From the NCBI RefSeq assembly GCF_000383235.1, contig NZ_KB910929.1, forward strand, positions 73,963 to 126,779: 52,817 nt of DNA, read 5' to 3'. Both the position numbers and the translations under genes were made by a program. Of this stretch, positions 6,905 to 51,275 are shown one piece after another; the first letter of the stretch is position 1, and each line of letters opens with the position of its first letter. This DNA comes from Bacillus sp. 123MFChir2 (GTDB taxonomy: Bacteria > Bacillota > Bacilli > Bacillales > Bacillaceae_G). The notes beneath the pieces were generated by a model, which had not been told where the DNA came from, did no database searches, and saw only the letters and a list, made by a program, of their open reading frames with translations.

Positions 6905-7009
6905 TTTGTCCTAATTTCACGAAAAGTTCACATGAAATTCACACACTTCCTTTACAGTAATAACTAGTTAATCCTTTCCTTAACACATATAAAGAGGAGA
7001 GTGCGTGAA

Positions 7010-7540
7010 ATGAAACAAGTTGGACAACCAATTCAAAACGAAAAACAATTAGAAAAAATCAAAGATATACTAATACTATCATCAAAACGTGATGCTTTAT
7101 TATTCGTATTAGCTGTAAATTCCGGATTAAAAGTAAGTGAAATATTGCAGTTAAAAGTTGGCGATGTTATCGATGAAAATGAGCATGTTCGTCATTCTAT
7201 CTTGTTCTATAATGACAAAATGAAAAAGCATAAATGGTTCGCTGTAAATGAAGAATTGCAACATACAATTGAACAATATATGAAAGAACGAAAAGTATGG
7301 AAGCGCAATGAACCATTATTAAAATCACAAAAAGGAACAAAATCTATCACAAGACAACATGCTTGGTACATTTTAAACAAAGCGGCAAAAGAAGTTGGTT
7401 TAGAAGGGATTAGCTCGCATACACTTCGTAAAACATGGGGATATTGTGCTTATAAATCTGGCGTAGATATTGCTTTTTTACAACACTTTTTTGATCATAG
7501 TACTCCATCCAAAACTTTAAAATACATCGGTATTGCTTAA
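7010..7540 (+). CDS. Short tyrosine-recombinase (phage integrase) family protein, YoeC-like
   Basis: The 176-aa protein corresponds to only the catalytic domain of tyrosine recombinases; the N-terminal core-binding domain is missing. Visible active-site positions are HTLRKTWG (His, Arg), HFFDHSTPSKT (second His) and the candidate nucleophile Tyr in LKYIGIA. The first catalytic Arg of the usual GLRxSEL motif is replaced by Lys (SGLKVSEILQL). ATG 7010 is chosen over GTG 7001 because GAGGAG ends at about 6999. It resembles the small chromosomal YoeC-type proteins of Bacillus rather than a prophage integrase, and no att site or phage gene is nearby. Confidence 0.82.
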   Translation: MKQVGQPIQNEKQLEKIKDILILSSKRDALLFVLAVNSGLKVSEILQLKVGDVIDENEHVRHSILFYNDKMKKHKWFAVNEELQHTIEQYMKERKVWKRNEPLLKSQKGTKSITRQHAWYILNKAAKEVGLEGISSHTLRKTWGYCAYKSGVDIAFLQHFFDHSTPSKTLKYIGIA

Positions 7541-8209: not shown

Positions 8210-10168
8210 CTATTGAATTGATTTTACATATTCCGCAATTGCATGTACTTCCTGCTTTGATAGCTGTGGCTTTTCTTCATATTGATGTTTGTCTACTGCC
8301 TCTTCAACGGTTTTCGCACTACCATCATGTAAATACGGTGCTGTCGCCCACACACCACGAAGTGTCGGGGGATCAAAGTACCCTTTTTGCCTTTTATTTT
8401 GGAAAGCACCACGTGCATCCCCATCATAACCTGTATCCGTTTCATTGGCCGTTCCGATGTTATAAAGAAAGTTTGTATTGTTCGTCGTTAATTTACTATT
8501 TTCATCAACAGCTTTTGTGCTATTTGTGAAATTATCACCGCCATGACACGTTAAACAATTTGCCTTTCCTTTAAATAATTGCTCTCCGTCTTTCGCAGTA
8601 GATGTTAATTCTCCATTTCCATGACGATACGGACTTTCTGGAACAGGGAACGAATTCGGATTATCTAAAAAAGCTTGCAAAGCATCATACATATGTTGCA
8701 CGTCTTTTGGAAGTTCTTTCCCAGGATCTAGTTCCATCATACCGCCCATTTCACCTTGTACGGTATGGATATAGTCTGTAAAATCATCTCGTGATCCATC
8801 CCACATAAACAAACCAGTTTTTGTCGTTAAGACGTTACTTGGTACATTTCGTTTCCCTTTCGGTGTCAATAGTGATAAACCATTTATTTCTCCATCACTA
8901 TGACATGTCGCACAGCTCATCCAGTTGTTTCCTGTAATTGTTGTTGCATATTTGTCGCTATTTGCACTGTAGAAAATTTCTTTTCCTTCACGTACAAGTT
9001 TTGATAAGGAATCTTTTTCAATTAATTTAACTGTCTTCTTATCAGCTTTCACTTTTGCATATGAATCATCTCCCCCTGTTTCTAGGAAAGCAAGATCATG
9101 ACTCATCGCATTATGAACTACTAATGTGTTTTCTTTTGGAAGCAACGTAATACCGCGTGGATTACTTCCTGGAATGCGCCTTACAATTTGTGTTGCATTT
9201 CCTCCACGTGTTAAATCAAAAATCATAAGATCTTCACTACCAGACATAACTACAAATGCCTTCGTTCCTTTTTCATTAAAAACTACGTCATATGGATTTG
9301 ATACAATCATCGTTTCATTTTTTGTATCTTTCACATTCATCGCTTCGAATAATTGTTTCCGTTGCTTTATAATTTCCTCATCTTTTTCTAAATCAATAAT
9401 CGACACAGTTGGGAAAACTGTTTCTTCAAACTGAATGGGTGTATCTACATTTGTAAGCATATGTGGAACCCAAGCTGTTTTTCCATCTGGTGCAATAACA
9501 AATTGCTCTAATGTATTTGGAATTCCTTGACTCTTTTTACGGTCTTCTTTGTCCGGTGAAGATGCAAGTGTAATCACTTTCTTCACTTTATTACTCTCTG
9601 TATCTACAACACTAATTTTCCCCTCTAAATAGTGCGGTACATACAATTTCTTTCCGTCTTTTGTCATCGCAAGCGTACGTGGGCGATCACCAATTTTGAT
9701 CTTTTGCACTGTTTTCTGCTTCTCAAGATCAATAACTGATACGTTACTGGAGCGAAAATTCGATACATATAACTTCGTTCCGTCTAGATTTGTAACGACA
9801 CCAAATGGTTCAATTTCAGTTGGAATTCGTTCAATCACTTTCTTCTTATCAAGTGAAACAACATCAACTTTATTATCGTACATACAAGAAACATATAATT
9901 TCGTTCCATCTGGACTGATTGTTAATTGTCTCGGTTCTTTTCCAACTGGAATCTCTGACACTACTTTTCTACTTTTTGTATCCATAACTGTTACTGTATT
10001 AATATCAATATTTGCTGTATAAATCCATTTTCCATCAGCACTCGTTACAATGTTATTACTATGAACAGCAGTGCTTCGCTTTTCTTCTTTTCCTGATGTT
10101 TTCATCCCACAACTTGCAAAAATCGCTATACATAGGAGTAATACAACCGCCATAAACAATCGCTTCAT
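8210..10168 (-). CDS. Lipoprotein: YVTN beta-propeller fused to di-heme (MauG/cytochrome c peroxidase-like) domain
   Basis: The 652-aa protein has a lipoprotein signal (lipobox FASC, Cys about 20). Residues ~40-360 contain repeated blades such as 'PDGTKLYVSCMYDNKVDVV' and 'DGKKLYVPHYLEGKISVVD', i.e. a YncE-type seven-bladed propeller. Residues ~390-652 carry two c-type heme motifs, CATCH (~419) and CLTCH (~539), plus PPTLRGVWATAPYLHDGSA, typical of the di-heme peroxidase/MauG family. It should act on the outer face of the membrane. It lies 141 bp downstream of the Fur-controlled lipoprotein gene, with a terminator in between, so co-transcription is possible by read-through only. The fold assignment is firm; the substrate is unknown. 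Confidence 0.85.
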   Translation of the reverse strand: MKRLFMAVVLLLCIAIFASCGMKTSGKEEKRSTAVHSNNIVTSADGKWIYTANIDINTVTVMDTKSRKVVSEIPVGKEPRQLTISPDGTKLYVSCMYDNKVDVVSLDKKKVIERIPTEIEPFGVVTNLDGTKLYVSNFRSSNVSVIDLEKQKTVQKIKIGDRPRTLAMTKDGKKLYVPHYLEGKISVVDTESNKVKKVITLASSPDKEDRKKSQGIPNTLEQFVIAPDGKTAWVPHMLTNVDTPIQFEETVFPTVSIIDLEKDEEIIKQRKQLFEAMNVKDTKNETMIVSNPYDVVFNEKGTKAFVVMSGSEDLMIFDLTRGGNATQIVRRIPGSNPRGITLLPKENTLVVHNAMSHDLAFLETGGDDSYAKVKADKKTVKLIEKDSLSKLVREGKEIFYSANSDKYATTITGNNWMSCATCHSDGEINGLSLLTPKGKRNVPSNVLTTKTGLFMWDGSRDDFTDYIHTVQGEMGGMMELDPGKELPKDVQHMYDALQAFLDNPNSFPVPESPYRHGNGELTSTAKDGEQLFKGKANCLTCHGGDNFTNSTKAVDENSKLTTNNTNFLYNIGTANETDTGYDGDARGAFQNKRQKGYFDPPTLRGVWATAPYLHDGSAKTVEEAVDKHQYEEKPQLSKQEVHAIAEYVKSIQ

Positions 10169-10262
10169 TATCTAACCCTTCTTTCTCACTCTACCGAGCA
10201 TTCCCTATTATCTATATCTCCTACCGATGGAAAGTTCACCTTGTTACATCCTTTTTTCATAA

Positions 10263-10294
10263 AAACCGAACAAGTTTATCAACTTGTTCGGTTT
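10263..10294 (-). terminator. Terminator after the Fur-controlled lipoprotein gene
   Basis: Perfect arms AAACCGAACAAGTT / AACTTGTTCGGTTT surround a TATC loop. Read leftward, the hairpin is followed by T residues. It lies between the two leftward lipoprotein genes. Confidence 0.9.
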
Positions 10295-10309
10295 AGTAAT
10301 ATCATAAAC

Positions 10310-12370
10310 TTATTTTGCTTTCTTCACTTCAACATTAACGAGAACTGGGGCAATACCATACTTACCGTGCCCTGATTGAATTTGCGGTACATTGTCCTTA
10401 TCAGCATTCCCAAGCTTCCCTTTTATATAAACATCGCCTGTATCCCAGAACTCACTTGTTTGCATTCCTTCTTTTAATGAAGGTCCATTGATTACTTGTT
10501 CATAAAAATCAACATAACGAGAAGTAATCGTTTTTTGTTCTAATGAATCATATTTCGTTTTATCCGTATCTGTATTACTTAAATTTTGCAATGCAACACG
10601 CAGCATTGCTGATACACTTCCAGCTGTATAAGGCGTATATTTCATTTCGCCTTTTTTCGTTTCATATGTATGTGCTTCTTTATTCCACATTTTACGATCT
10701 ACTAAATCATATAGTTTACGCGCTTCTTCGCGATACGTTTCATCTTTGATCGCTAAAAAGGCCGCTGTTAATCCTCGGATTGCTCCAAGCTGCGCTTCTA
10801 ATGTAACAGGTTCACTATCTTGTCCTTTTCCAATCGTATAACTATTTGCCATAAAACCATCTTTTGTTTTCATATTCTTTAATAGAAAATCTGCTTGCGT
10901 CTTAATCATATTAAGGGCACTTTTTCCTTCTTCTGTTTGTAAGCCTTGTGCCTCTGCCCCGCTTGCATATCCAACTGGCATACCATCAATGGCACGCTGG
11001 AATATACGAAGTGCTTCTACCATATAACCTACGTCAAACGTATCAATACGTTTTCCTTGTTCTGTTCCGCTATGTTCTGTAACAAACGCACCTGTTTCCT
11101 TATTATAGTGCATTGCTTCAATATTTTTAAAGACTTGTAACATGACATCACGATTCAATGAATAAGGATCATCTGCTTTCACATCATTCGCTACATCAAG
11201 ATCTGTATTTTCTGTTGCCGCTTTGGCAAAAGGCGTACCATCAAATGCTGCTTGGAACGCTCGGTTTACATTTTTATTGTCCGGACGCTGATCTGCCATT
11301 CCGAAAAATTCGGCAGTTGGCCATAACATCATCCATTGATCGCGAAGCATACTACGTGCGTCTTTCACTTCTAATTGACCAGCTTTCGCAATGCCATTCT
11401 TTTCATCTTCATTTACTTTAATCTCATGAGGTAAGTAAACAAAGCCACTCTCAGGGCTATATTTACTTCCTGCTCCGTTTGTTAATTGCTTTGCATTCGC
11501 ATCATAGAATAGACCATCGCGAATATATGCAAGTTTATTCCAAATTTCTTCTGTCAAAATAACACCTTGCATACCATCAGCACTACTTTTTCCAAGGCGA
11601 ATATTTGGATCTTGATCTTGCGTATTTGATGTAGCATCTAATTCTTCGTCCTTATCTACCGTATGAAAACCACCTAAAAAATCCCCTGCCCATAATGCTT
11701 GCTTTAAAAATGTTGAACCGTACGCTGCTGGTGTTAACGTTTTATTCATTTTCGAACGGTCCCAGCGCAATGTTTTAAAATCCATTTGGAAAGCTGGTAC
11801 ATATGTATTATCATCATTTTCTGCATATACGGACGTATTTACTTTTTGCATATAATGAGGGTCACCACCAGCATATTCCATAAATGTCGGATACATATTT
11901 GCAAAAATTTCTTTACGTGGATATCCTACACTATCTGCTAGTGTATAAAAACGCTCTTCTAGCCAAGACGGAGCTTCTTTATTTGTTTCTTTTGTCATCT
12001 TCTGTACAATTGGTGCATTAAGTAAATGGAAGCCAAGTCCTGATTTTTCTACTACCTCATACATCCCTTCTTCTGAGTATTCATAAGACTCAATGCCAGC
12101 TATATAATCAAATTTCGTTGGTTTATTTCGTTTTTTCGCATCTAAAATATCTAAATCCAGCCCTAAACCTTCTGCTAACGGTTCACCAGCTAATTCGAAT
12201 TCTGCATATGCAAACATATTTGCTGCCGTATCAAATGTATAATCCGTTACTGGTACACTATATGTACTTTTTCCTTTTGCCGTTTCTTCTTTCTTACCTG
12301 CACACCCTACCGAAAGTAACAGTGAGGAAACAACAGCAACTGTTGTCATCACTTTCCATGGATTTTTCAT
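10310..12370 (-). CDS. Iron-regulated lipoprotein of unknown function, 686 aa
   Basis: The signal peptide ends in lipobox LSVGC (Cys about 23). The mature part is long and soluble, rich in Asp/Lys and aromatic residues. The C-terminal half has repeated helical segments such as 'ALRIFQRAIDGMPVGYASGA' and 'TAGSVSAMLRVALQNLS', which look like an alpha/alpha-barrel as in six-hairpin glycosidases. I do not recognise a named family or catalytic motif. The promoter is a near-consensus sigma-A site flanked by two Fur boxes, so expression should rise under iron limitation. The downstream neighbour is a di-heme peroxidase-like lipoprotein, so the two may act together on the cell surface in iron or heme metabolism; that is inference. 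Confidence 0.8.
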   Translation of the reverse strand: MKNPWKVMTTVAVVSSLLLSVGCAGKKEETAKGKSTYSVPVTDYTFDTAANMFAYAEFELAGEPLAEGLGLDLDILDAKKRNKPTKFDYIAGIESYEYSEEGMYEVVEKSGLGFHLLNAPIVQKMTKETNKEAPSWLEERFYTLADSVGYPRKEIFANMYPTFMEYAGGDPHYMQKVNTSVYAENDDNTYVPAFQMDFKTLRWDRSKMNKTLTPAAYGSTFLKQALWAGDFLGGFHTVDKDEELDATSNTQDQDPNIRLGKSSADGMQGVILTEEIWNKLAYIRDGLFYDANAKQLTNGAGSKYSPESGFVYLPHEIKVNEDEKNGIAKAGQLEVKDARSMLRDQWMMLWPTAEFFGMADQRPDNKNVNRAFQAAFDGTPFAKAATENTDLDVANDVKADDPYSLNRDVMLQVFKNIEAMHYNKETGAFVTEHSGTEQGKRIDTFDVGYMVEALRIFQRAIDGMPVGYASGAEAQGLQTEEGKSALNMIKTQADFLLKNMKTKDGFMANSYTIGKGQDSEPVTLEAQLGAIRGLTAAFLAIKDETYREEARKLYDLVDRKMWNKEAHTYETKKGEMKYTPYTAGSVSAMLRVALQNLSNTDTDKTKYDSLEQKTITSRYVDFYEQVINGPSLKEGMQTSEFWDTGDVYIKGKLGNADKDNVPQIQSGHGKYGIAPVLVNVEVKKAK

Positions 12371-12390
12371 CTATTCCCGCCCCTTTGAAT

Positions 12391-12409
12391 GATACTGATA
12401 ATTATTATC
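12391..12409. promoter_or_regulatory. Fur box 2 (downstream of promoter)
   Basis: GATACTGATAATTATTATC matches 17 of 19 positions of the Fur consensus GATAATGATAATCATTATC. It sits just downstream of the predicted start point of the 686-aa lipoprotein gene, a position that blocks transcription. Confidence 0.82.
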
Positions 12410-12423
12410 ACATAAACGTTGTT

Positions 12424-12452
12424 ATTATATTATTAAATCAGTTTTTTGTAAA
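12424..12452 (-). promoter_or_regulatory. Sigma-A promoter of the 686-aa lipoprotein gene
   Basis: On the minus strand the -35 is TTTACA (12447-12452) and the -10 is TATAAT (12424-12429), with an exact 17-nt spacer. It is flanked on both sides by Fur boxes. Confidence 0.82.
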
Positions 12453-12494
12453 CTTTAAATTTTTTAAGAAAAAGATACAAAAAGCATTGACAAT

Positions 12495-12513
12495 GATAAT
12501 GATAACCATTATC
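12495..12513. promoter_or_regulatory. Fur box 1 (upstream of promoter)
   Basis: GATAATGATAACCATTATC matches 18 of 19 positions of the classical Fur consensus. No gene reads rightward from here, so the site must serve the leftward lipoprotein gene. Confidence 0.88.
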
Positions 12514-12583
12514 ATTTATTATGAAGCCAACAATTGTTAAATCAACCAAACGCTCAGTAACATTGTTACCCCTCTTTTTTCAT

Positions 12584-12631
12584 AAAGAAAAACACTGTAC
12601 ATTCCCCCTGTTTGTACAGTGTTTTTCTTTT
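12584..12631. terminator. Bidirectional terminator after DUF72 gene
   Basis: Arms AAAGAAAAACACTGTACA / TGTACAGTGTTTTTCTTT flank a C-rich loop. It separates the Fur-controlled region from the leftward DUF72 gene. Confidence 0.92.
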
Positions 12632-12660
12632 TTTTGACTAGTAATGAATGATATTTCACT

Positions 12661-13506
12661 TCACTCAAATAAATTTAGTTGTTCGGGCTTAGGTTCTCCG
12701 TACGTCATACCTAGCATATCCATGAGTTGTTTCGCGTTATCTGCTGCATCTCCGCCAGAATTATTATTAAATAGAAGATAAACTTCTTTTGTTTTTGTTT
12801 TCAATTCTTCTATCCGTTCTATCCATTCTTTTAATTCTTGTTTATTATAGCGATATAAGCAGCGAACAGCCCGCCAGTTCTCTCCCTTATCGAGCCACCC
12901 GTGTACATTGCGTCCGTGAAACCGAACTAAGGTCATTTGTTCATGCGTTGCTTCTAATACAATTGGAATAGAGCCTATTCCCGCTTGTGGCTCATCACAA
13001 ATTGTATGAATCCAACCTTCTTGTTTCATAAATTCCAACGTTCGATTACGAAATTGTGGATAAAACCAAGTCTGATTCCGAAACTCTAATGAACATGGGA
13101 TATCTTTCATTTTCTCTTTTGTATAACGTAATAAATCTACATTTTTCTTTTGACAATCAAACCAAGGTGGATACTGGAATAATACCATTTTCAGCTTATT
13201 GGCTTTTTGAAGAGGAGCAATTGACTCTTTAAATGCGTGAAACATATCATCAATATTTGCAAACGGAATTTCTCCGCGCATATGGCCTGTCATTCCTTGA
13301 TAAGCCTTTACAATAAATGCAAAGTTTGACGGTGTTTCTATAGCCCATTTCTCATAATTTCTCACAGGCTGCATAGCATAAAAAGAACTATCTATTTCCA
13401 CAATGGGAAAATTCTCACAGTATGTTTGCAGTTTATGCTTTGTTTCATATGCATCTTTATATAAAGAATCGTGGTCCCCCCAGCCCGTTAACCCAATAGA
13501 AATCAT
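12661..13506 (-). CDS. DUF72 family protein (YunF-like)
   Basis: The 281-aa protein has a TIM-barrel-like pattern. It begins ISIGLTGWGDHDSLY and contains VEIDSSFYAMQP, FAFIVKAYQGMTGH, 'MVLFQYPPWF', SLEFRNQTWF and YLLFNNNSGGDAADNA, all hallmarks of DUF72. The biochemical role of DUF72 is unsettled. The start at 13506 is preferred to 13530 because GGAGGTGG lies 8 bp upstream. It is monocistronic, with bcr1-like repeats upstream and a terminator downstream. Confidence 0.88.
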   Translation of the reverse strand: MISIGLTGWGDHDSLYKDAYETKHKLQTYCENFPIVEIDSSFYAMQPVRNYEKWAIETPSNFAFIVKAYQGMTGHMRGEIPFANIDDMFHAFKESIAPLQKANKLKMVLFQYPPWFDCQKKNVDLLRYTKEKMKDIPCSLEFRNQTWFYPQFRNRTLEFMKQEGWIHTICDEPQAGIGSIPIVLEATHEQMTLVRFHGRNVHGWLDKGENWRAVRCLYRYNKQELKEWIERIEELKTKTKEVYLLFNNNSGGDAADNAKQLMDMLGMTYGEPKPEQLNLFE

Positions 13507-13533
13507 TTGAATACCACCTCCAATCTCCAATCC

Positions 13534-14507: not shown

Positions 14508-14625
14508 TGCATACGCCCATTTTTTATAAATTAGTCAAGTATCCTAGGTCTTGTCCTGTAAAGATGAATATCATATAACGACAAATGATTTAAATAGAAA
14601 AAACCCCATTAAGGAGGAACTATGT

Positions 14626-15255
14626 ATGATGTATCCATACAATAATTCGTTTTATTCTCAAAATTCGATGAGAAATTTTAAAAATTTAATTGGCACAAAC
14701 GTAAGTGTTAATTTAGGAGGTCCAGAAAAAGGAGAGGGCACATTATTAAAAATTCAAAATGATTTTTGTGTAGTACAAACTGACGATGGTGTTGTTTACT
14801 ACCCATCACATCATATTAATGGCTTTGCTGAGCAATATGAAGATGAATCTGAAGAATCAGATGATAATGAACAAAATAACAACCAAAATAACCAAAATGA
14901 AGACCCTATCATTGTAAGCGGAACCCGTTTTGGAAGTGTTATTAACCGTCTAAAAGGGGAAACAATTCAATTGAATCAAGGTCCGAAAAAAATAGAAGGG
15001 ATTGTTGTCGGCCGTACTAGAGATCATATCCTTCTAGAAGTTGATGGTCAAATTACGTATGTACCAACGTTCCATGTTCAAAGCATGCGTTGGAACTATA
15101 ATAATAATAATAATGATGATAACAATAATGATAACAATAACGAAAATAATAACGATGCTAATAACAACGATGATAATGAAACACGTAACCAAGATTGTGC
15201 GAGAGAGAAGTGCAAAAGAAAGAAATGTAAACGACGCGAAAGACGTTGTGACTAA
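14626..15255 (+). CDS. Spore coat protein, CotB-like
   Basis: The 209-aa protein has two related LSm-like beta modules, 'FKNLIGTNVSVNLGGPEKGE...' (residues ~14-70) and 'RLKGETIQLNQGPKKIEG...' (~107-155). An Asp/Glu/Asn-rich linker joins them, an Asn/Asp-repeat tract follows, and the tail is very basic with Cys residues (CKRKKCKRRE). This matches CotB-type outer-coat proteins of the B. cereus group. AAGGAGG at 14611 selects the ATG at 14626, not the upstream in-frame start at 14551. Mother-cell expression late in sporulation is expected from the family; I did not find a clear sigma-K promoter. Confidence 0.8.
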   Translation: MMYPYNNSFYSQNSMRNFKNLIGTNVSVNLGGPEKGEGTLLKIQNDFCVVQTDDGVVYYPSHHINGFAEQYEDESEESDDNEQNNNQNNQNEDPIIVSGTRFGSVINRLKGETIQLNQGPKKIEGIVVGRTRDHILLEVDGQITYVPTFHVQSMRWNYNNNNNDDNNNDNNNENNNDANNNDDNETRNQDCAREKCKRKKCKRRERRCD

Positions 15256-34732: not shown

Positions 34733-34893
34733 AAAAAAGACCTCTTCTGAAGAGAAGAGGTCTTATATATCATATATAAGAAACACTCTTCTCATCTATC
34801 AAGCATATCGCTTGCTGGATTTGGCACAGCACTCTATTATAAGTCCGCTGCCGAGGCATCGTAGGGCCAGTCCCTCCGCCTCTCTTGATAAGA
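34733..34893 (-). ncRNA. SAM-I (S-box) riboswitch with terminator
   Basis: Read leftward, the aptamer starts CTTATCAAGAGAGGCGGAGG, followed by GGCCCTACGATGCCTCGGCA and GTGCCAAATCCAGC, all S-box signature blocks. P1 closes with CTTGATAGATG. An intrinsic terminator follows at 34733-34764 (arms AAGACCTCTTCT / AGAAGAGGTCTT plus T-run). High SAM should therefore stop transcription of the transporter gene. Confidence 0.94.
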
Positions 34894-35030
34894 AGGTTTC
34901 ATATTATATTTTGTGTAAATTAATCTTTCCTTACTTTACTCGCTACAAGAGAAAATGTCAAACATTATTTCCATCAAAATAGTTGGTATTTTTTTGATAT
35001 ATGAGGTTTTTTAACGTGTATTTAAATAGT

Positions 35031-39959: not shown

Positions 39960-40228
39960 ATCGTGCCTGTACGTAACATACTAAATGGAGATTGCCTAAG
40001 TTGGAGAGCCAAAGAAGGCTATGTGCAAAGGTACTGAATATCCAATATGGTAACGGAGTTCTCGTAGTAGTCCGAGCTAGGGAAAGCCTAGTACATGGCG
40101 AAAGGAGCGAAAGGCTCTATACAAGACTCAGAAATTGTATTATACAGCCCATGTAAGTGGAAAGCCGTATACTCGGAGACGAGTACGTACGGTCGAGGGG
40201 AGTTCAAGGAAACCTACTATAGTAACAT
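39960..40228 (+). ncRNA. Group II intron remnant (domain V and VI retained)
   Basis: Domain V at 40161-40194 folds as AAGCCGTATACTCG-GAGA-CGAGTACGTACGGTC, with the AGC triad and conserved bulge region. Domain VI-like sequence with AACCTACTAT follows to about 40228. Upstream, ATGGTAACGGAGTTCTCGTA and GGGAAAGCC...GGCGAAAGGAG resemble domain I-IV parts. Total size (~270 nt) is too short for a working intron, and no reverse transcriptase is present, so it is a deletion relic. Exact ends are uncertain. Confidence 0.72.
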
Positions 40229-40449
40229 AGTAAAGCGACGAATTCTTACTCTACTACACATAACTTCACCGCATGAAAATAAAAGCAATCATTGCTTATA
40301 ACAAAAAAACGAAGGGAAACTCCTTAGTTTTGATGAATATTTCGCTCCTACTTGCGTGCGTGAACACTCTTATCGCTAGGATAGTTTTGATGATAAATAT
40401 CAAACATTGCCGTACACAAGACCAAATAAGTGTAAGACTTGCCAATTAG

Positions 40450-40895: not shown

Positions 40896-43850
40896 ATGAA
40901 AAATGTAAGATTGATAACAAGTTTTATAGGAGTAACTTTTGCAGGACTATTTACTGTAACTTCGATTGGAAATGCAGAAAGTGCCACTTATACACAAACA
41001 GGAGGTACAGTTCATTATAATTGGGGATATGGAGCTCCTTCTGGTGTACAAAATGATCATTTCACAGCTCAATTTAATCAATCACAGAACATGAATGCGG
41101 GAGATTATTTTGTTCATACCTTGGCAGATGATCGTGTTCGAGTAACTTTTGATGGAAAGAAAGTTATTGATCGTTGGTATGATGTTGGTGGACAAATCGA
41201 TCGTGCTCTTATAACAAATGTGAAGCAAGGTGATCATAAAATTCAAACTGATTTTTATGAAAATGGTGGTCAAGCAGCTATTTTTTCCGATATTGTACCT
41301 TTTGATCATTGGTTAGCTTATTATTATCCAAATAGGAATTTAGAAGGTTATCCAGTTGATGCAAAAATCATTGCACCGCAAGGTATTGAGAAAGCACTAG
41401 TTGAAAATAGCGGAGAAGGCTCACCGTCACCTAAAATTCCTGCAGATAATTTTTCTGCTCGGTATACTACAGTAAAACGATTACCGGCAGGAGAATATAT
41501 TGTTCGTGGAAAAGCGGATGATGGTATGCGTTTATTTATCGATGGTAAACTTATCATAGATGAATGGGATACTGGAAAATGGGATAAAGAACATGCTAGA
41601 AAGATTACGATTCAAGATAACACAGCTAGTGGGGCATTTGGGTCTACAAATGAAAAGGATACTCATCTTGTAGAAGTTCAATATATGGAAGCAGTCCGTT
41701 CTAGTGATGTAAAATTTAGTATTCAACCATATAAGGATGTTGTACAGCATGATACATGGACAGCAGAATACTATAACAATACAGAATTTAAAGGTGACGC
41801 AGTTGTTGTAGCTGGTAAAAATTCTAAAGATAGAATAGATACAATTAATTTTGATTGGAAAGATGGTTCTCCACATCCAAATGTAAAAAGTGACAATTTC
41901 ACAGCACGTTTTACCAAAGTGCAAGATTTTAAATCTGGTGATTATTACTTTGGTGGCATAGTAGATGATGGTATGCGAGTATATTTAGATGATAAACTCA
42001 TTATTGATAATTGGGGGGGCGGATACGATAAAATATCTGCGAAGAAAGTCCCAGTTACTGAGGGGAAACATAAAGTCACCGTTGAATATTTAGAATTAAC
42101 TGGTGGAGCCAACTTGAAATTTGATATTGAACCATATAGTCAAGCTATTCAACAAAATACATGGACAGCAGAATACTTTAATAACACAGAATTTAAAGGC
42201 AATCCAGTCCACATAGCAGGAAAGACTAACAAAGACAAAATAGATAAAATCCAATTTGATTGGAAAAATGGTTCCCCACATCCAAGTGTACCTGCCGATA
42301 ATTTCTCAATAAGATACACAAAAATCGCCAACTTTGATGAGGGTGAATATTATTTCGATGGTGTTACAGATGATGGTGTCCGAGTATACTTAGATGATAA
42401 ACTTGTTATTGATAACTGGGGTGGCGGAGATAATAAATTATATGGATTAAATAGAGCAGTTACTGGTGGAAAACACAAGATTACTGTGGAGTATTTAGAA
42501 CTAACTGGTGGGGCTAAATTTACATTTAACTATTCTAAAAATGAGGATAAAATGTGCAAAAGACTAAATAGAACAGGCCTTCGTTCTTTACAAAGTACAG
42601 TAAAAAAGAATCCAATGGAAGAATTAAATGTAAAATCAGAATCTACTACTAATACTGTATCATTAAAATGGAATGGTATAGCTGATAAGTACAAAGTTTA
42701 CTTAAAAAATAAATTAGTATATACAGGAACAGAAGCAAGCTATACTCATAAGAATTTAAGCGATAATACACGTTACTCCTTTAAAGTTGTTGCTTTTGAT
42801 AAAGATAACAAGCCTGTTGATGTAAATATTGTACAGATAATGACTAAAGAGAACGCTAAAATGGCATTAGCACGTTCAGCAGCACCTACTAAGACTACAG
42901 TTTTAGATAATGTAACACTAGCTGCTAATATCACCAAGGATACAATTGAACAAAAATGGGATGGAAAAATTCCAGATGACGATGGCACGTATGAAGTTTA
43001 TCGTAATGATGATAAACTTGGAGAAACACAATCTTCTTGCTTCATAGATACTGCAGTAACTCCTGGTGAACACTATTATTACAAAGTTCTAGGGAAAACA
43101 AAAATAACTGATTCAAAGATGTTACAAGAAGCGAAAGATAAAGGTGTCAAGGAAGATAGCGATGGTAATTATTATTTATATTATGAAATTGGAAATGAAG
43201 CAAAAATTCCAAAGATAGAAGAGGAATATTTTTATGCTTCTCCTAAAAGAGGGGTTGCTTCTTCTGGCTATGATTATCAATATGAATTTAAGTACAAAAC
43301 CTTTATACCAAAGGATAAGGTTAGTATGGTTGGTTTTGGAGAGGGAGCAGAGTTTCATGGGGATGACAGAAAGTTCAGCTATAGTGATAACAGGTACCGT
43401 ACACAAACAGTAGTTTTAGCACGATTTACCAATGGAACTTCAAGTGCTAAATTAACAGATGAAACGGATGTTGCTGAAAGTATCCTTTACAAGCCTGGAC
43501 ACAGCCCAGAATATGCTAGAGCTTCAAAGGATGGAATCTCATTGGAAACTATTTATTCCACAAGGAATTCTTTGGTATTTACTGTAAATCACTCGGTTGG
43601 AATTCCATTTAAAGCATTCTATTATATTTCTCCACCTACAATTGATTACTGGTATGTAGCTAGCTTAAGTATGGAAGGTGATAACTCTGTTACGGGTCGT
43701 CATGATCGCGCACCGTCTCATGAGCTATATTTAACTCGTCCATATACAGACCGTCCAAGAGTAACATTGGTAAGAGATAGACATGAAGGATTTCACAATT
43801 TATTTGGTATCGGTAAAAGCTTTAAATATTATTGGGAAGGAACTTCTTAA
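40896..43850 (+). CDS. Large secreted protein with repeated PA14 domains and fibronectin III-like domains
   Basis: The 984-aa protein has a signal peptide of ~30 residues. Four PA14-like modules follow, the first partial (~32-135, ~138-278, ~283-413, ~417-550), with repeated phrases FTARFTKVQDFKSGDYYFGG and 'DDGMRVYLDDKLIIDNWGGG'. Two FN3-like domains (~575-660 and ~690-770) come next. The C-terminal ~200 residues (FIPKDKVSMVGFGEGAEFHG; SHELYLTRPYTDRPRVTLV) may be DUF3238. PA14 domains usually bind glycans, so a surface or host-polysaccharide role is plausible. There is no LPXTG or catalytic motif. GGGGG precedes the ATG. It is surrounded by transposon relics, suggesting transfer. Confidence 0.87.
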   Translation: MKNVRLITSFIGVTFAGLFTVTSIGNAESATYTQTGGTVHYNWGYGAPSGVQNDHFTAQFNQSQNMNAGDYFVHTLADDRVRVTFDGKKVIDRWYDVGGQIDRALITNVKQGDHKIQTDFYENGGQAAIFSDIVPFDHWLAYYYPNRNLEGYPVDAKIIAPQGIEKALVENSGEGSPSPKIPADNFSARYTTVKRLPAGEYIVRGKADDGMRLFIDGKLIIDEWDTGKWDKEHARKITIQDNTASGAFGSTNEKDTHLVEVQYMEAVRSSDVKFSIQPYKDVVQHDTWTAEYYNNTEFKGDAVVVAGKNSKDRIDTINFDWKDGSPHPNVKSDNFTARFTKVQDFKSGDYYFGGIVDDGMRVYLDDKLIIDNWGGGYDKISAKKVPVTEGKHKVTVEYLELTGGANLKFDIEPYSQAIQQNTWTAEYFNNTEFKGNPVHIAGKTNKDKIDKIQFDWKNGSPHPSVPADNFSIRYTKIANFDEGEYYFDGVTDDGVRVYLDDKLVIDNWGGGDNKLYGLNRAVTGGKHKITVEYLELTGGAKFTFNYSKNEDKMCKRLNRTGLRSLQSTVKKNPMEELNVKSESTTNTVSLKWNGIADKYKVYLKNKLVYTGTEASYTHKNLSDNTRYSFKVVAFDKDNKPVDVNIVQIMTKENAKMALARSAAPTKTTVLDNVTLAANITKDTIEQKWDGKIPDDDGTYEVYRNDDKLGETQSSCFIDTAVTPGEHYYYKVLGKTKITDSKMLQEAKDKGVKEDSDGNYYLYYEIGNEAKIPKIEEEYFYASPKRGVASSGYDYQYEFKYKTFIPKDKVSMVGFGEGAEFHGDDRKFSYSDNRYRTQTVVLARFTNGTSSAKLTDETDVAESILYKPGHSPEYARASKDGISLETIYSTRNSLVFTVNHSVGIPFKAFYYISPPTIDYWYVASLSMEGDNSVTGRHDRAPSHELYLTRPYTDRPRVTLVRDRHEGFHNLFGIGKSFKYYWEGTS

Positions 43851-44910: not shown

Positions 44911-47382
44911 TTATTTTAGTACCTTTCTAAATTTGCGCCCAAAAGTAAGTACCATACCTGCAAGAACCATTAATATACCCATTGCTACACTGTTATTTGT
45001 ACTTGCACCCGTTTTTGGAAGCTCTTTATATGCATCTTCTTTTTTATCAAAAGTACTATTGTTTGCGCTATTACTGTTATCAGTATCAGGGCCATTGCTG
45101 TTGATAATACCAGTACTGCCATTATCAGTGCTATTACCGTTATTGGTATTGTTATTTCCGTTACCATTGTCCTTATCTTTCACAACCACTTTTTGTGTCA
45201 TAGTTGATTCATTACCGTCTGAGTCACGAACAAGGAATTTTACTTCATAAGTACCAGTTTTAGATGTATCTACTTCACCAAAATGCATTACTTTATCAGT
45301 AATATCGCCATCTTCTTTATCAATAGCTTTAACCCCAGACATTGGATAGAATTTGTCTCCTACATTCATATTCACTTCAGCAGGTACAGTTAATGCTGGT
45401 GCTTCATCTTTTGTTTCTTCTTTCTCTTTAACCGTTACCGTTTGTATCGCAATTACTTTATGACCTTTAGAGTCTTTAACTGTGTAAGTTAAAACATATG
45501 TATCCGGTTTAGTAGTATCTACTTTACCGTCAACTGTTACTTTATCAGTAAGGTCGCCGTCTTCTTTATCCGTAGCGGATACTCCTACCATTGGATCGAA
45601 TGAATCACCTACATTAATTATTGCTTCAACAGGTACTGTTAACTTCGGTTCCATATCTGGAGTTTCTCTGTTTTCTTCTACCTTAATTTTTACTGCATTA
45701 AAAGCCTTTTGAACTGCTTGAACTGCAGCTGAGTTCGCTTCATATTTATTTGTTGCAACTCGAAGGCATGCCGATCTCAATTCAGAGAAATCAGAAGTCA
45801 TGTTTAATTCGTCAGTGTTTGCATAGTGGAAAATATCAAACATTTTATCCTCACCAATACCTTCTACAGTTACACCGTTATGAGTGCCCCCTTTTGCAAT
45901 TAAATAAGCAACTTTATTAATAATACTTGAGTTAAAATGAACGCCTCCTTGGTCCCTTCCATTAAAATCGTTAAATTTACTATAATCATCTGGATAAGGT
46001 ACTCCATCTGAAGAATTAATTGAAGATGGATTTTCCATATCACGGAAAGCTGATCCAGTTTGTTCTCCTATTGTCCAGTTAAATCTCCCATTATTGATGT
46101 ATTTCTCAATAGCTGTTCCCATAATATCAGACAATGCCTCATTAATTGCACCAGATTCTCCGTAATATTCAAGATTGGATTCGCTAGATGTAACCGCATG
46201 TGTAAACTCATGTCCCGCTATGTCAAATGCCTTTACAAGAGGATCGCCATATACAAGCATACTACCATTATCAGCACTTAATGCATTCTGCCAATCTTTC
46301 GCATCATTTGTCTCTTCAGAATCCCAGGCATGTACAACTGATACTATTTTTTGTCCCTTATTATCAAAACTATTACGCTTGTATTTATTTTTATAAAAAT
46401 CATATACTTTTGTTGCTAAGAAATGAGCACTTACCGCCTTTGGATCATTAAATGTTGTTGAAGTGCTAGTTGCTAGTGTACCAGGGTAATAGTTTTTTTC
46501 TGTTTTAATATCTCTGTAATTTACATCATATGTTTCAATTCCTTGCCCTCTAGTGTAATCAGCAAGTGCATATTTTCCATTACTTTGTTCAGAAATACCA
46601 AATGTACGAGAGATACCTAAATCATCTTTTCCTGTTCCAGTTAGTGATGTAAGAGTGCTTTTTCTACTTTCCTTTAAGACTCCAACAAGCTTTTCACTTG
46701 CTTTTAAGTTGGATTCTTGTACCATATTTTTTAACATATCTCCATTATGTGCATTTACTAAATAGGTTCCAGATACATAGTTTGGTGTGGCAGCAGCAAA
46801 TGTAACTTGATATGCATTGCTGGCTTGTCCATTATTCTCATCAACAAAAATAATTTCCTTTACTTCTGGCTCAGAAATAAACTTGATTTCATTTCTATAT
46901 TTTGTATAAATGTATTGTTTCGCTTCTTCTTGTGATAGATTAATAGGTTTCTTTAAATCTTCTTGTTTTAAATTTTGCGCGCTATCTCCTAAAACACTTT
47001 TAATAACACCCTTTTTATCTACGTGTGCAGTCAATTGATGTCCATATACTTCTTTTCCTTCATATGTTTGTTGCATACGCAAAAGCGTTGTCCCATCATA
47101 AGAACCACGCTTTTGAAGAACCTTATAATCTACTCCTGATTCTCCATTAACTTGTTTTGAGGACAAAGCTTGTTCTGTCTTCTCCTTAAGAGCATCTTTT
47201 ACTACATTCTCTGGTGCCTTTTGTGATGGTTGTGTAAGTTCACCTGTACGGAACGAGTCCTCCTGAATTTGAACTTGTAGTTGATCTGTCTCCTTTGCAT
47301 GGCCTACTCCATATGGTGTTACAGCTGTTAAAGCTAATTGTGTTGTTAATGCAACTGTAGCTAATGTTTTTTTATTTTTCAT
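44911..47382 (-). CDS. LPXTG-anchored thermolysin-like neutral protease (M4) with Ig-like repeats
   Basis: The 823-aa protein is synthesised as a prepropeptide. A signal peptide (~1-29) is followed by FTP and PepSY propeptide regions (~55-215). The M4 catalytic domain (~225-560) has zinc motif HEFTH (~391), GAINEALSDIMG (third ligand Glu) and GGVHFNSSIINK (active-site His). Two DUF5011-type Ig-like repeats follow, each with 'DKEDGDLTDKV'-like signature. An Asn/Ser/Asp linker and a sortase signal LPKTG (~787), hydrophobic helix and basic tail close the protein. Ordinary B. cereus neutral proteases are released; this one should be fixed to the wall. It is isolated among insertion sequences. Confidence 0.93.
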   Translation of the reverse strand: MKNKKTLATVALTTQLALTAVTPYGVGHAKETDQLQVQIQEDSFRTGELTQPSQKAPENVVKDALKEKTEQALSSKQVNGESGVDYKVLQKRGSYDGTTLLRMQQTYEGKEVYGHQLTAHVDKKGVIKSVLGDSAQNLKQEDLKKPINLSQEEAKQYIYTKYRNEIKFISEPEVKEIIFVDENNGQASNAYQVTFAAATPNYVSGTYLVNAHNGDMLKNMVQESNLKASEKLVGVLKESRKSTLTSLTGTGKDDLGISRTFGISEQSNGKYALADYTRGQGIETYDVNYRDIKTEKNYYPGTLATSTSTTFNDPKAVSAHFLATKVYDFYKNKYKRNSFDNKGQKIVSVVHAWDSEETNDAKDWQNALSADNGSMLVYGDPLVKAFDIAGHEFTHAVTSSESNLEYYGESGAINEALSDIMGTAIEKYINNGRFNWTIGEQTGSAFRDMENPSSINSSDGVPYPDDYSKFNDFNGRDQGGVHFNSSIINKVAYLIAKGGTHNGVTVEGIGEDKMFDIFHYANTDELNMTSDFSELRSACLRVATNKYEANSAAVQAVQKAFNAVKIKVEENRETPDMEPKLTVPVEAIINVGDSFDPMVGVSATDKEDGDLTDKVTVDGKVDTTKPDTYVLTYTVKDSKGHKVIAIQTVTVKEKEETKDEAPALTVPAEVNMNVGDKFYPMSGVKAIDKEDGDITDKVMHFGEVDTSKTGTYEVKFLVRDSDGNESTMTQKVVVKDKDNGNGNNNTNNGNSTDNGSTGIINSNGPDTDNSNSANNSTFDKKEDAYKELPKTGASTNNSVAMGILMVLAGMVLTFGRKFRKVLK

Positions 47383-50952: not shown

Positions 50953-51189
50953 AAAAAAAGTCCTCTACATGCTATTACGCATATAGAGGACGATATTATA
51001 ATACCGTGGTACCACCTCAGTTGGATAAACTATCCCACTTTTCAGGTACAGGAATACTTCCGATACCTTATCCTTTTAACGGCGGAACCCGGGTTGCCTA
51101 CTAATCATTCAACATACCTCTCGCAAGCCCATTCCGTATATTTTATCGTACCGGGCTCCCACCTTTCCCCAGCTCTCTGAACGTCTCAA
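50953..51189 (-). ncRNA. T-box leader, probable tyrosine specificity
   Basis: Read leftward, Stem I begins GACGTTCAGAGAGCTGGGG and contains GGTGGGAGCCCGG. The AGTAGGC linker follows Stem I. The T-box core GAGGTGGTACCACGGTAT (51001-51018) precedes a terminator (arms GTCCTCTA / TAGAGGAC, 50960-50991) with a T-run. Aligning GCGAGAGGTATGTTGAA with the general Stem I pattern GAG-N-codon-NN-TGAA gives specifier UAU (51114-51116). Uncharged tRNA-Tyr should permit read-through. Confidence 0.88.
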
Positions 51190-51275
51190 ATATACATACT
51201 CTTCTTGCTCATCGATTTCATGTATTGAAGTTAATTGTGATTATAGAGGAGAATATTTCATTTGTAAAGAATAAA

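Follow-up and report, generated by a model that had tools for sequence, protein, structure and literature searches.

The window analysed here is a 52,817-nt stretch of DNA from Bacillus sp. 123MFChir2 (contig NZ_KB910929.1), and it encodes on its minus strand two neighbouring lipoproteins that are likely an unrecognised iron-uptake system common to bacteria of distant lineages, because neither gene was found without the other in any of 396 surveyed genomes and the two here lie downstream of a sequence that matches the Fur site. The first gene encodes a 686-amino acid (aa) protein of an unnamed family that is predicted to fold as an alpha/alpha toroid. The next gene encodes a 652-aa protein in which a YVTN beta-propeller is joined to a di-heme domain. 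The model we favour, with a probability of roughly 0.57, is that the pair serves an iron-uptake system as its redox module at the surface, the cytochrome oxidising Fe2+ and the toroid binding the iron and passing it on. In one annotated record, the products of the pair are named 'hypothetical protein' and 'beta-propeller fold lactonase family protein'.

Co-occurrence and predicted Fur control of the gene pair

The two genes form a conserved unit and their pairing is strict. A profile of the 686-aa family found 160 loci, and the best 80 of these were taken for comparison (61 from Bacillota and 19 from other phyla). The propeller/di-heme gene directly follows the 686-aa gene in all 61 Bacillota loci, a conservation of neighbourhood that the original prediction, made from the window's sequence alone, had put forward for checking. 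The approximate gap between the two genes in these loci ranges from -3 to 115 nt, and the 141-nt gap in the window exceeds every one of them. In the non-Bacillota loci the propeller/heme gene adjoins the toroid gene in 7/19; the remaining 12 are Aeromonas loci in which it is not adjacent, meaning that it is not within the retrieved stretch, which for some of these loci is a short contig. A survey of 199 Bacillota genomes, in which matches were accepted up to E values of 1e-20 (toroid) and 1e-60 (cytochrome), found both genes in the same 20 genomes and one gene alone in none, and a survey of 197 genomes at these limits likewise found both in the same 20 and one alone in none. Both surveys include the centre genomes and some others already known to hold the pair, and the odds of drawing identical lists at random are near 1e-27 per survey, ignoring shared descent. 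Physical linkage does not explain the pairing, since in 7 of the 20 holders from the 197-genome survey the two genes are at least 46 kb apart or on different contigs. The original prediction was staked on homologues of the two genes co-occurring more than rarely, and the surveys found the opposite of rarity.

Members of the 686-aa family were found in Bacillota, Pseudomonadota and one metagenome-assembled genome of the Campylobacterota; the laboratory species Parageobacillus thermoglucosidasius has one of them (P0011). The family is rare in Pseudomonadota, as a whole-phylum survey from one seed found the toroid gene in the centre genome only, among 398. Further toroid surveys gave 4/194, 3/150 and 1/149 genomes, and 5/19 for Bacillota, with the centre and already known genomes counted in. 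The pair is also carried by one Anoxybacillus plasmid; the other four plasmid records with a toroid gene are from Aeromonas, one of them 4.9 Mb long. When the open reading frames (ORFs) of the 80 loci were clustered by BLAST, no third gene family was found beside the pair in more than 15 loci. A heme-uptake or siderophore operon was rejected as an explanation on this ground, the smaller families having been partly identified.

The 686-aa gene is preceded by the sigma-A-like promoter that had been predicted for it, with a match of 11/12 (Table 1). A promoter scan at a looser limit gave 21 matches in the region against a mean of 22.3 (standard deviation 5.2) in shuffles, and such matches are thus not enriched. 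Both of the predicted 19-nt Fur boxes were recovered with their scores when matched to GATAATGATAATCATTATC, which we take to be the Fur box consensus. Fur box 1 follows closely on the start site expected for the 686-aa gene and is the only site in the whole window with a 14/14 match to the 7-1-7 form. Fur box 2 sits between the -35 and -10 elements of a divergent promoter, 43 nt upstream of the -35 element of the 686-aa gene. The two boxes had been described as flanking the lipoprotein promoter; the boxes are real, but because the second is located inside the opposite-facing promoter, the lipoprotein promoter does not simply have its own box on either side. Fur box 2 more likely belongs to a candidate short transcript that runs divergently.

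Fur-like boxes recur in the relatives. A search of the 300-nt region preceding the 686-aa gene, with 12,200 windows drawn at random from these loci as the control, identified a box of at least 12/14 in 41/61 Bacillota loci versus 0.79% of random windows, and a box of at least 11/14 in 51/61 versus 3.7%. An extra box of 11-13/14 is found between the two genes in 13 of the 61 loci, nearly all of them from Geobacillus, Parageobacillus or Anoxybacillus. PerR or Zur control was rejected as a general rule, as the Fur consensus gives the better score in 51 of the 62 regions compared upstream of the gene, the others being 9 ties and 2 loci that fit PerR best. A Fur box at the promoter is expected of a member of the Fur regulon, and the exact 7-1-7 box together with the recurrence of Fur-like boxes in relatives suggests, at the level of sequence, that the pair is such a member. 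An AT-rich tandem repeat (15094-15177) inside the ORF at 14551-15255 also mimics weak Fur boxes, and these matches are likely a repeat artefact.

The two proteins and the proposed direction of iron redox chemistry

The 652-aa protein exhibits domain matches to a YVTN beta-propeller (residues ~38-371) followed by a di-heme domain (~386-652) that resembles cytochrome c peroxidase (CCP), MauG and the gamma subunit of hydrazine synthase (HZS), in agreement with the propeller and two-heme peroxidase-like domain originally assigned to it. Its CXXCH motifs are located at residues 419-423 and 538-542. Two CXXCH motifs are present in 59/59 Bacillota relatives, four of these proteins being incomplete; L010 and L055 of the 61 loci were dropped as they have no start codon near the expected place. 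In an alignment of 48 of the 59 with the window protein (49 rows), Trp456 and Glu473 are invariant. The corresponding residues of di-heme CCP are the bridging Trp and the catalytic Glu, and the protein thus combines the two CXXCH motifs of a bacterial di-heme CCP with both of these residues in the N-terminal heme domain. The distal ligand of the C-terminal heme is Tyr in MauG/MbnH enzymes and Met in di-heme CCP. The alignment column that pairs with this Tyr in 6e1c and with this Met in 1iqc, column 628, contains H in 32 of the 49 Bacillota proteins, D in 7, G in 5, I in 3, N in 1 and V in 1, with insertions there in distant members; neither a Tyr matching that of MbnH nor a Met in the CCP-type position is found in any of the 49. 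His was considered as the distal ligand and dropped, as it is present in 32/49 only.

Outside Bacillota, the pair was compared in 17 clusters from Pseudomonadota and Campylobacterota, which consist of seven loci of the 80-locus set together with L104-L107, L109, L110 and L149-L152. The genomes retrieved to extend the set included 4 of 12 Moritella-like genomes, the genus being taken from a 96% match, and 4 of the 7 genomes with unlinked genes; L109 and L110 were chosen for the FTR1 found there, before their cytochrome was known. L108, whose FTR1 is at the end of a contig, and L153-L156, which have a toroid gene but not the cluster, were excluded. The toroid gene of L105 is on the same stretch, ~8 kb away, and those of L109 and L110 are elsewhere in the genome. 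All 17 clusters encode a propeller cytochrome and a small four-His membrane protein, which is probably a b-type cytochrome; the two are joined in a single polypeptide in L068, L079 and L107. The proteobacterial cytochrome contains six CXXCH motifs in 6/6 complete proteins, one adjacent to the propeller and five in a c554/MtrC-like tail. The propeller and the first heme motif (W416-M-S-C-x-x-C-H-x-D-G) are common to both phyla and the second redox part differs, being a CCP-type half in Bacillota and the five-heme tail in Pseudomonadota. No equivalent of Trp456 or Glu473 was found in the six Pseudomonadota cytochromes aligned.

An FTR1/EfeU permease with both REGxE motifs is encoded in 8/17 clusters (FTR1 PF03239, 5.6e-44), and its L068 copy scores 205.9 of 255 bits against the EfeU model. 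In 12/17 there is also a gene for a small secreted protein, in which the motif AYSYxAAGKEP is conserved at 90% or above. In the two Aeromonas genomes of L109 and L110, the whole cytochrome-FTR1 cluster is found at a second locus unlinked to the lone toroid gene, and is composed of the four-His membrane protein, the propeller/heme cytochrome, FTR1, a flavoprotein, the small secreted protein and a membrane protein. The best upstream Fur-like box in the 17 clusters is 11-13/14 in 13 and 10/14 in 4, with shuffling of each region as the only control and with gene starts for part of the search set by hand from tblastn matches. Directly upstream of the toroid gene, L104 and L106 encode an extra small c-type cytochrome-like ORF with a CXXCH motif (L104:4693-5358 and L106:11415-12071).

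These differences bear on the suggestion that the di-heme domain acts as a MauG/MbnH-type enzyme, oxidising residues of the 686-aa protein and so building a cofactor or metal site. The 652-aa protein does match the MbnH-family model TIGR04039 (8.1e-22), the MauG model TIGR03791 (2.2e-11) and the HZS gamma models, its Trp456 and Glu473 are invariant, and its partner has four Trp residues conserved in both phyla (W203, W227, W346 and W350). The scores, however, are far under the curated cut-offs (77.7 of 362.85 for TIGR04039 and 43.5 of 443.85 for TIGR03791), the column of the MbnH Tyr contains no Tyr in 49 proteins, and the six aligned Pseudomonadota cytochromes lack Trp456 and Glu473 yet keep the partner. 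We therefore regard MauG-type chemistry as unlikely; as the second redox part is not shared by the phyla, the common task is more likely electron transfer with iron. The original prediction of an extracytoplasmic iron or heme redox pair is accordingly supported for iron redox and for the large lipoprotein as constant partner, to which the co-occurrence, the Fur boxes and FTR1 in 8/17 clusters point, but not for modification of that lipoprotein as a MauG-type substrate in any general mechanism.

The 686-aa protein matches no Pfam or NCBIfam family above cut-off, as had been anticipated. Structure prediction, one of the checks originally proposed, gives an alpha/alpha toroid with a predicted local distance difference test (pLDDT) score of 90. 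This predicted fold is that of the AGE, GH76 and GH105 enzymes, to which the protein exhibits no sequence match at Pfam/NCBIfam cut-offs, and its best PDB profile match is cellobiose 2-epimerase (0.021). The toroid could on this basis be a carbohydrate-active enzyme in an operon that processes an iron-regulated surface glycan or a glycosylated siderophore. No such family reaches cut-off or scores better than 0.0066, there is no third gene family in more than 15/80 loci, and carbohydrate-active enzymes are, to our knowledge, seldom tied so strictly to a heme protein; we consider this reading very unlikely. The label DUF4856, which is the UniProt name of relatives P0137 and P0223, was likewise rejected, as the Pfam model matches none of 26 members, both of these included. 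When the 686-aa protein was scanned along with 25 relatives at E <=10, neither imelysin (M75) nor cupredoxin was among the matches listed, which comprise 10 families; HMMER filters drop most matches above 0.1 from such a listing. Imelysin folds are also not among the VIA-align rows for the protein, which is not an exclusion of such folds.

An N-terminal Cys is invariant in 53 aligned relatives, and the signal peptides of the proteobacterial homologues have no Cys. Segment 54-104 contains eight Glu residues conserved in both phyla, and 30 of its 51 positions are conserved in both versus 15.6% elsewhere in the protein, the segment having been chosen after the fact as the densest conserved stretch. 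The proteobacterial set of this alignment consists of 21 rows, of which those of L150 and L152 are incomplete at the N-terminus; L075, L106 and L149 were not picked up, and L070, L076 and L078 are absent.

In the favoured model, the propeller/di-heme protein would be loaded with heme and would oxidise ferrous iron in the direction Fe2+ to Fe3+, and the predicted toroid would bind iron and hand it on in the direction of a permease in the membrane. The electrons would leave to the respiratory chain, in Pseudomonadota via the co-encoded four-His membrane protein. Since a permease was not found next to the Bacillota pair, the iron would there go to an unlinked permease, perhaps an FTR1 homologue; such a homologue is found elsewhere in the genome in 7/7 Bacillota genomes tested. 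A divergent Fur-controlled small RNA would start an iron-sparing response simultaneously. Oxidation of Fe2+ and hand-over of Fe3+ are favoured because FTR1 is present in 8/17 clusters.

Several findings weigh against this model. FTR1 is not present in 9/17 clusters, no match to it was found in the L062 and L064 genomes, and none of the 61 Bacillota loci match the proteobacterial FTR1 query, so FTR1 is not an obligate partner. An FTR1/EfeU permease is also not among the 14 typed ORFs of the window, and the unlinked FTR1 of Bacillota says little, as B. subtilis and three more of the 14 genomes used as controls also give a match. No upstream box of at least 11/14 was found in 10 of the 61 Bacillota loci, and the upstream boxes of 12 Aeromonas toroid genes reach at best 8-9/14, with the same shuffling control as for the clusters. 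A flavoprotein resembling amine oxidases and UDP-galactopyranose mutase is encoded in 11/17 clusters and a membrane protein without a family in 12/17, and the alpha/alpha-toroid fold is best known from sugar-acting enzymes.

The main rival to the favoured model is the opposite direction, in which the cytochrome acts at the surface as a ferric reductase, freeing Fe2+ for uptake by a ferrous importer, and the toroid holds the ferric complex. The four-His membrane protein and multiheme c554/MtrC-like tail of Pseudomonadota fit this direction, as arrangements of this kind also serve the outward transport of electrons from quinol, and the L062 and L064 genomes have the cluster and no FTR1 match. 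Against it, the permease, where one is in the cluster (8/17), is FTR1, whose family is coupled to Fe2+ oxidation, and the retention of Trp456 and Glu473 in 49/49 Bacillota proteins fits an oxidase or peroxidase better. In PMC3143127 the assumption for EfeB is that it reduces ferric iron to the ferrous form ahead of EfeU, which counts for the reductase and against the oxidation of Fe2+. On balance the reductase is doubtful, though of more weight than the other alternatives. The least probable of these, and a highly improbable one, is an iron-regulated peroxidase defence in which the cytochrome removes surface hydrogen peroxide and the toroid is only a scaffold. The CCP-like domain, whose Trp and Glu are conserved in Bacillota, is consistent with such a defence, but Fur fits better than PerR in 51/62 upstream regions (2 PerR, 9 ties), the Pseudomonadota form lacks Trp456 and Glu473 in the alignment, and FTR1 is linked in 8/17 clusters.

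The candidate divergent transcript and other features of the window

The divergent promoter around Fur box 2 is followed by a candidate small RNA that ends in a strong terminator hairpin (fold z -5.65). This hairpin could be merely a terminator shared with the facing DUF72 gene (12661-13530, minus strand). A DNA search of 19 genomes for the small RNA region found a match somewhere in 16, mostly to the Fur box alone; G872, G001, G002 and G871 also match the RNA body or the terminator loop when aligned. The Fur box, the C-rich loop and the terminator are thereby common to five genomes, the window included. The G001 copy is located ~0.8 kb upstream of the toroid gene, and those of G872, G002 and G871 are on a contig other than that of the toroid gene. 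The arrangement of the window is also seen in an environmental relative (L160). No Rfam family reaches its gathering score for the region, and at E <=5 the names returned are far below gathering, among them LhrC, PrrF and RsaE. The transcript may be an FsrA-like iron-sparing RNA. It is like the FsrA/RyhB-type RNAs in being short and in having a promoter Fur box, a C-rich stretch and a strong terminator, but unlike them it has no Rfam family at gathering. FsrA carries CCCCA and CCCCU motifs, according to the excerpt of PMC12871923 available.

Table 1. Positions of the gene pair and of its control elements in the window.
Feature	Position	Strand	Basis
686-aa lipoprotein gene, predicted alpha/alpha toroid, unnamed family	10310-12370	-	ORF list
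652-aa lipoprotein gene, YVTN propeller and di-heme domain	8210-10168	-	ORF list, family matches
Terminator-like hairpin between the two genes, 14-bp stem followed by a T-run	10261-10294	-	fold z -5.58
Fur box 1, 17/19 at 12391-12409, 14/14 (7-1-7 form) at 12396-12410	12391-12410	-	sequence match
Sigma-A-like promoter of the 686-aa gene, TTTACA-17-TATAAT, 11/12	12424-12452	-	pattern scan
Divergent promoter, TTGACA-17-TATCAT, 11/12; -35 at 12487-12492, -10 at 12510-12515	12487-12515	+	pattern scan
Fur box 2, 18/19 at 12495-12513, 13/14 (7-1-7 form) at 12500-12514	12495-12514	+	sequence match
Candidate Fur-controlled small RNA with CCCCUCUUUUUU and the terminator loop CCCCCUGUUUG	12522-12632	+	start inferred from -10

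The hairpin between the two genes was identified by folding and was not listed by the promoter/terminator pattern scan; it would reduce expression of the cytochrome relative to the toroid. Elsewhere in the window, a short tyrosine-recombinase ORF (7001-7540, plus strand) matches the integrase catalytic domain only; a mobile origin of the pair was considered in view of this ORF and of the Anoxybacillus plasmid. Two large surface proteins are encoded, one with PA14 domains and fn3 (40896-43850, plus strand) and one an LPXTG-anchored thermolysin-type protease with Ig-like domains (44911-47382, minus strand). Other RNA elements are a SAM riboswitch (34789-34894) and a T-box leader (50983-51221), both on the minus strand, and there is a group II intron match at 40160-40254 on the plus strand.

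Relation to known systems

By analogy, the pair likely does the same kind of job as the EfeUOB/FTR1-type uptake systems, with which it has in common the predicted Fur control and, in 8/17 clusters, an FTR1/EfeU permease, and in which a redox protein with heme likewise works beside an extracytoplasmic companion. Unlike EfeUOB, it exhibits no match to the imelysin/cupredoxin protein EfeO or to EfeB; the Pfam/NCBIfam scan of the 652-aa protein returned c-type cytochrome/CCP/MauG and propeller families and no DyP (EfeB-type) match. The companions are instead the unnamed toroid family and the propeller/heme cytochrome, and no FTR1 was found beside the Bacillota pair. Fur-regulated operons of an imelysin and a di-heme (DUF1111) protein, such as PA4370-PA4373, are described in the PMC3143127 excerpt. 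As far as that excerpt shows, the pair resembles them in that the gene of a helical extracytoplasmic protein, under what is here a predicted Fur control, accompanies that of a di-heme protein, and FTR1 may be present or absent (PMC3143127). It differs from them in that the predicted toroid replaces the imelysin four-helix bundles, the heme domain is fused to a propeller, and the DHOR model PF06537 is below threshold for the 652-aa protein (0.0088, 15 of 22 bits). As the imelysin and EfeB features are lacking, the pair is a member of neither group.

The MbnH/MbnP and MauG systems share with the pair the di-heme fold and a gene paired with that of a partner protein, but the pair is below their cut-offs, has no Tyr in 49/49 proteins and has a partner without a Pfam family. 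The HZS beta-gamma subunits differ in their partner and from the Fur setting of the pair, and the scores of the 652-aa protein against the NCBIfam HZS models are far under the cut-offs (113.4 of 1250 and 50.7 of 625). The pair thus belongs to no named system. No description of the pair or of the cluster was found in the open-access literature, subscription papers being outside the scope of the search, and the available portions of PMC9938188 and PMC2667191 name nothing in their iron-response data that could be tied to the pair.

We tentatively propose, at a little less than even odds, that these genes represent a new uptake architecture across Bacillota, Pseudomonadota and Campylobacterota, in which a toroid iron carrier is combined with an obligate propeller/c-heme ferroxidase. 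The full Pseudomonadota version would be composed of the toroid, a b-type cytochrome, the propeller/hexaheme cytochrome and FTR1, and the Gram-positive version would be a two-lipoprotein surface form, which in this Bacillus a single divergent Fur-controlled region would launch along with an iron-sparing small RNA. If this is true, FTR1-type uptake can use c-type cytochromes wired to the respiratory chain, with the toroid replacing imelysin/EfeO, and the Gram-positive version is a siderophore-free system of heme redox chemistry on iron at the cell surface. The two proteins thereby gain a testable joint role in iron supply, and their strict pairing makes each an obvious bait for finding the role of its partner.

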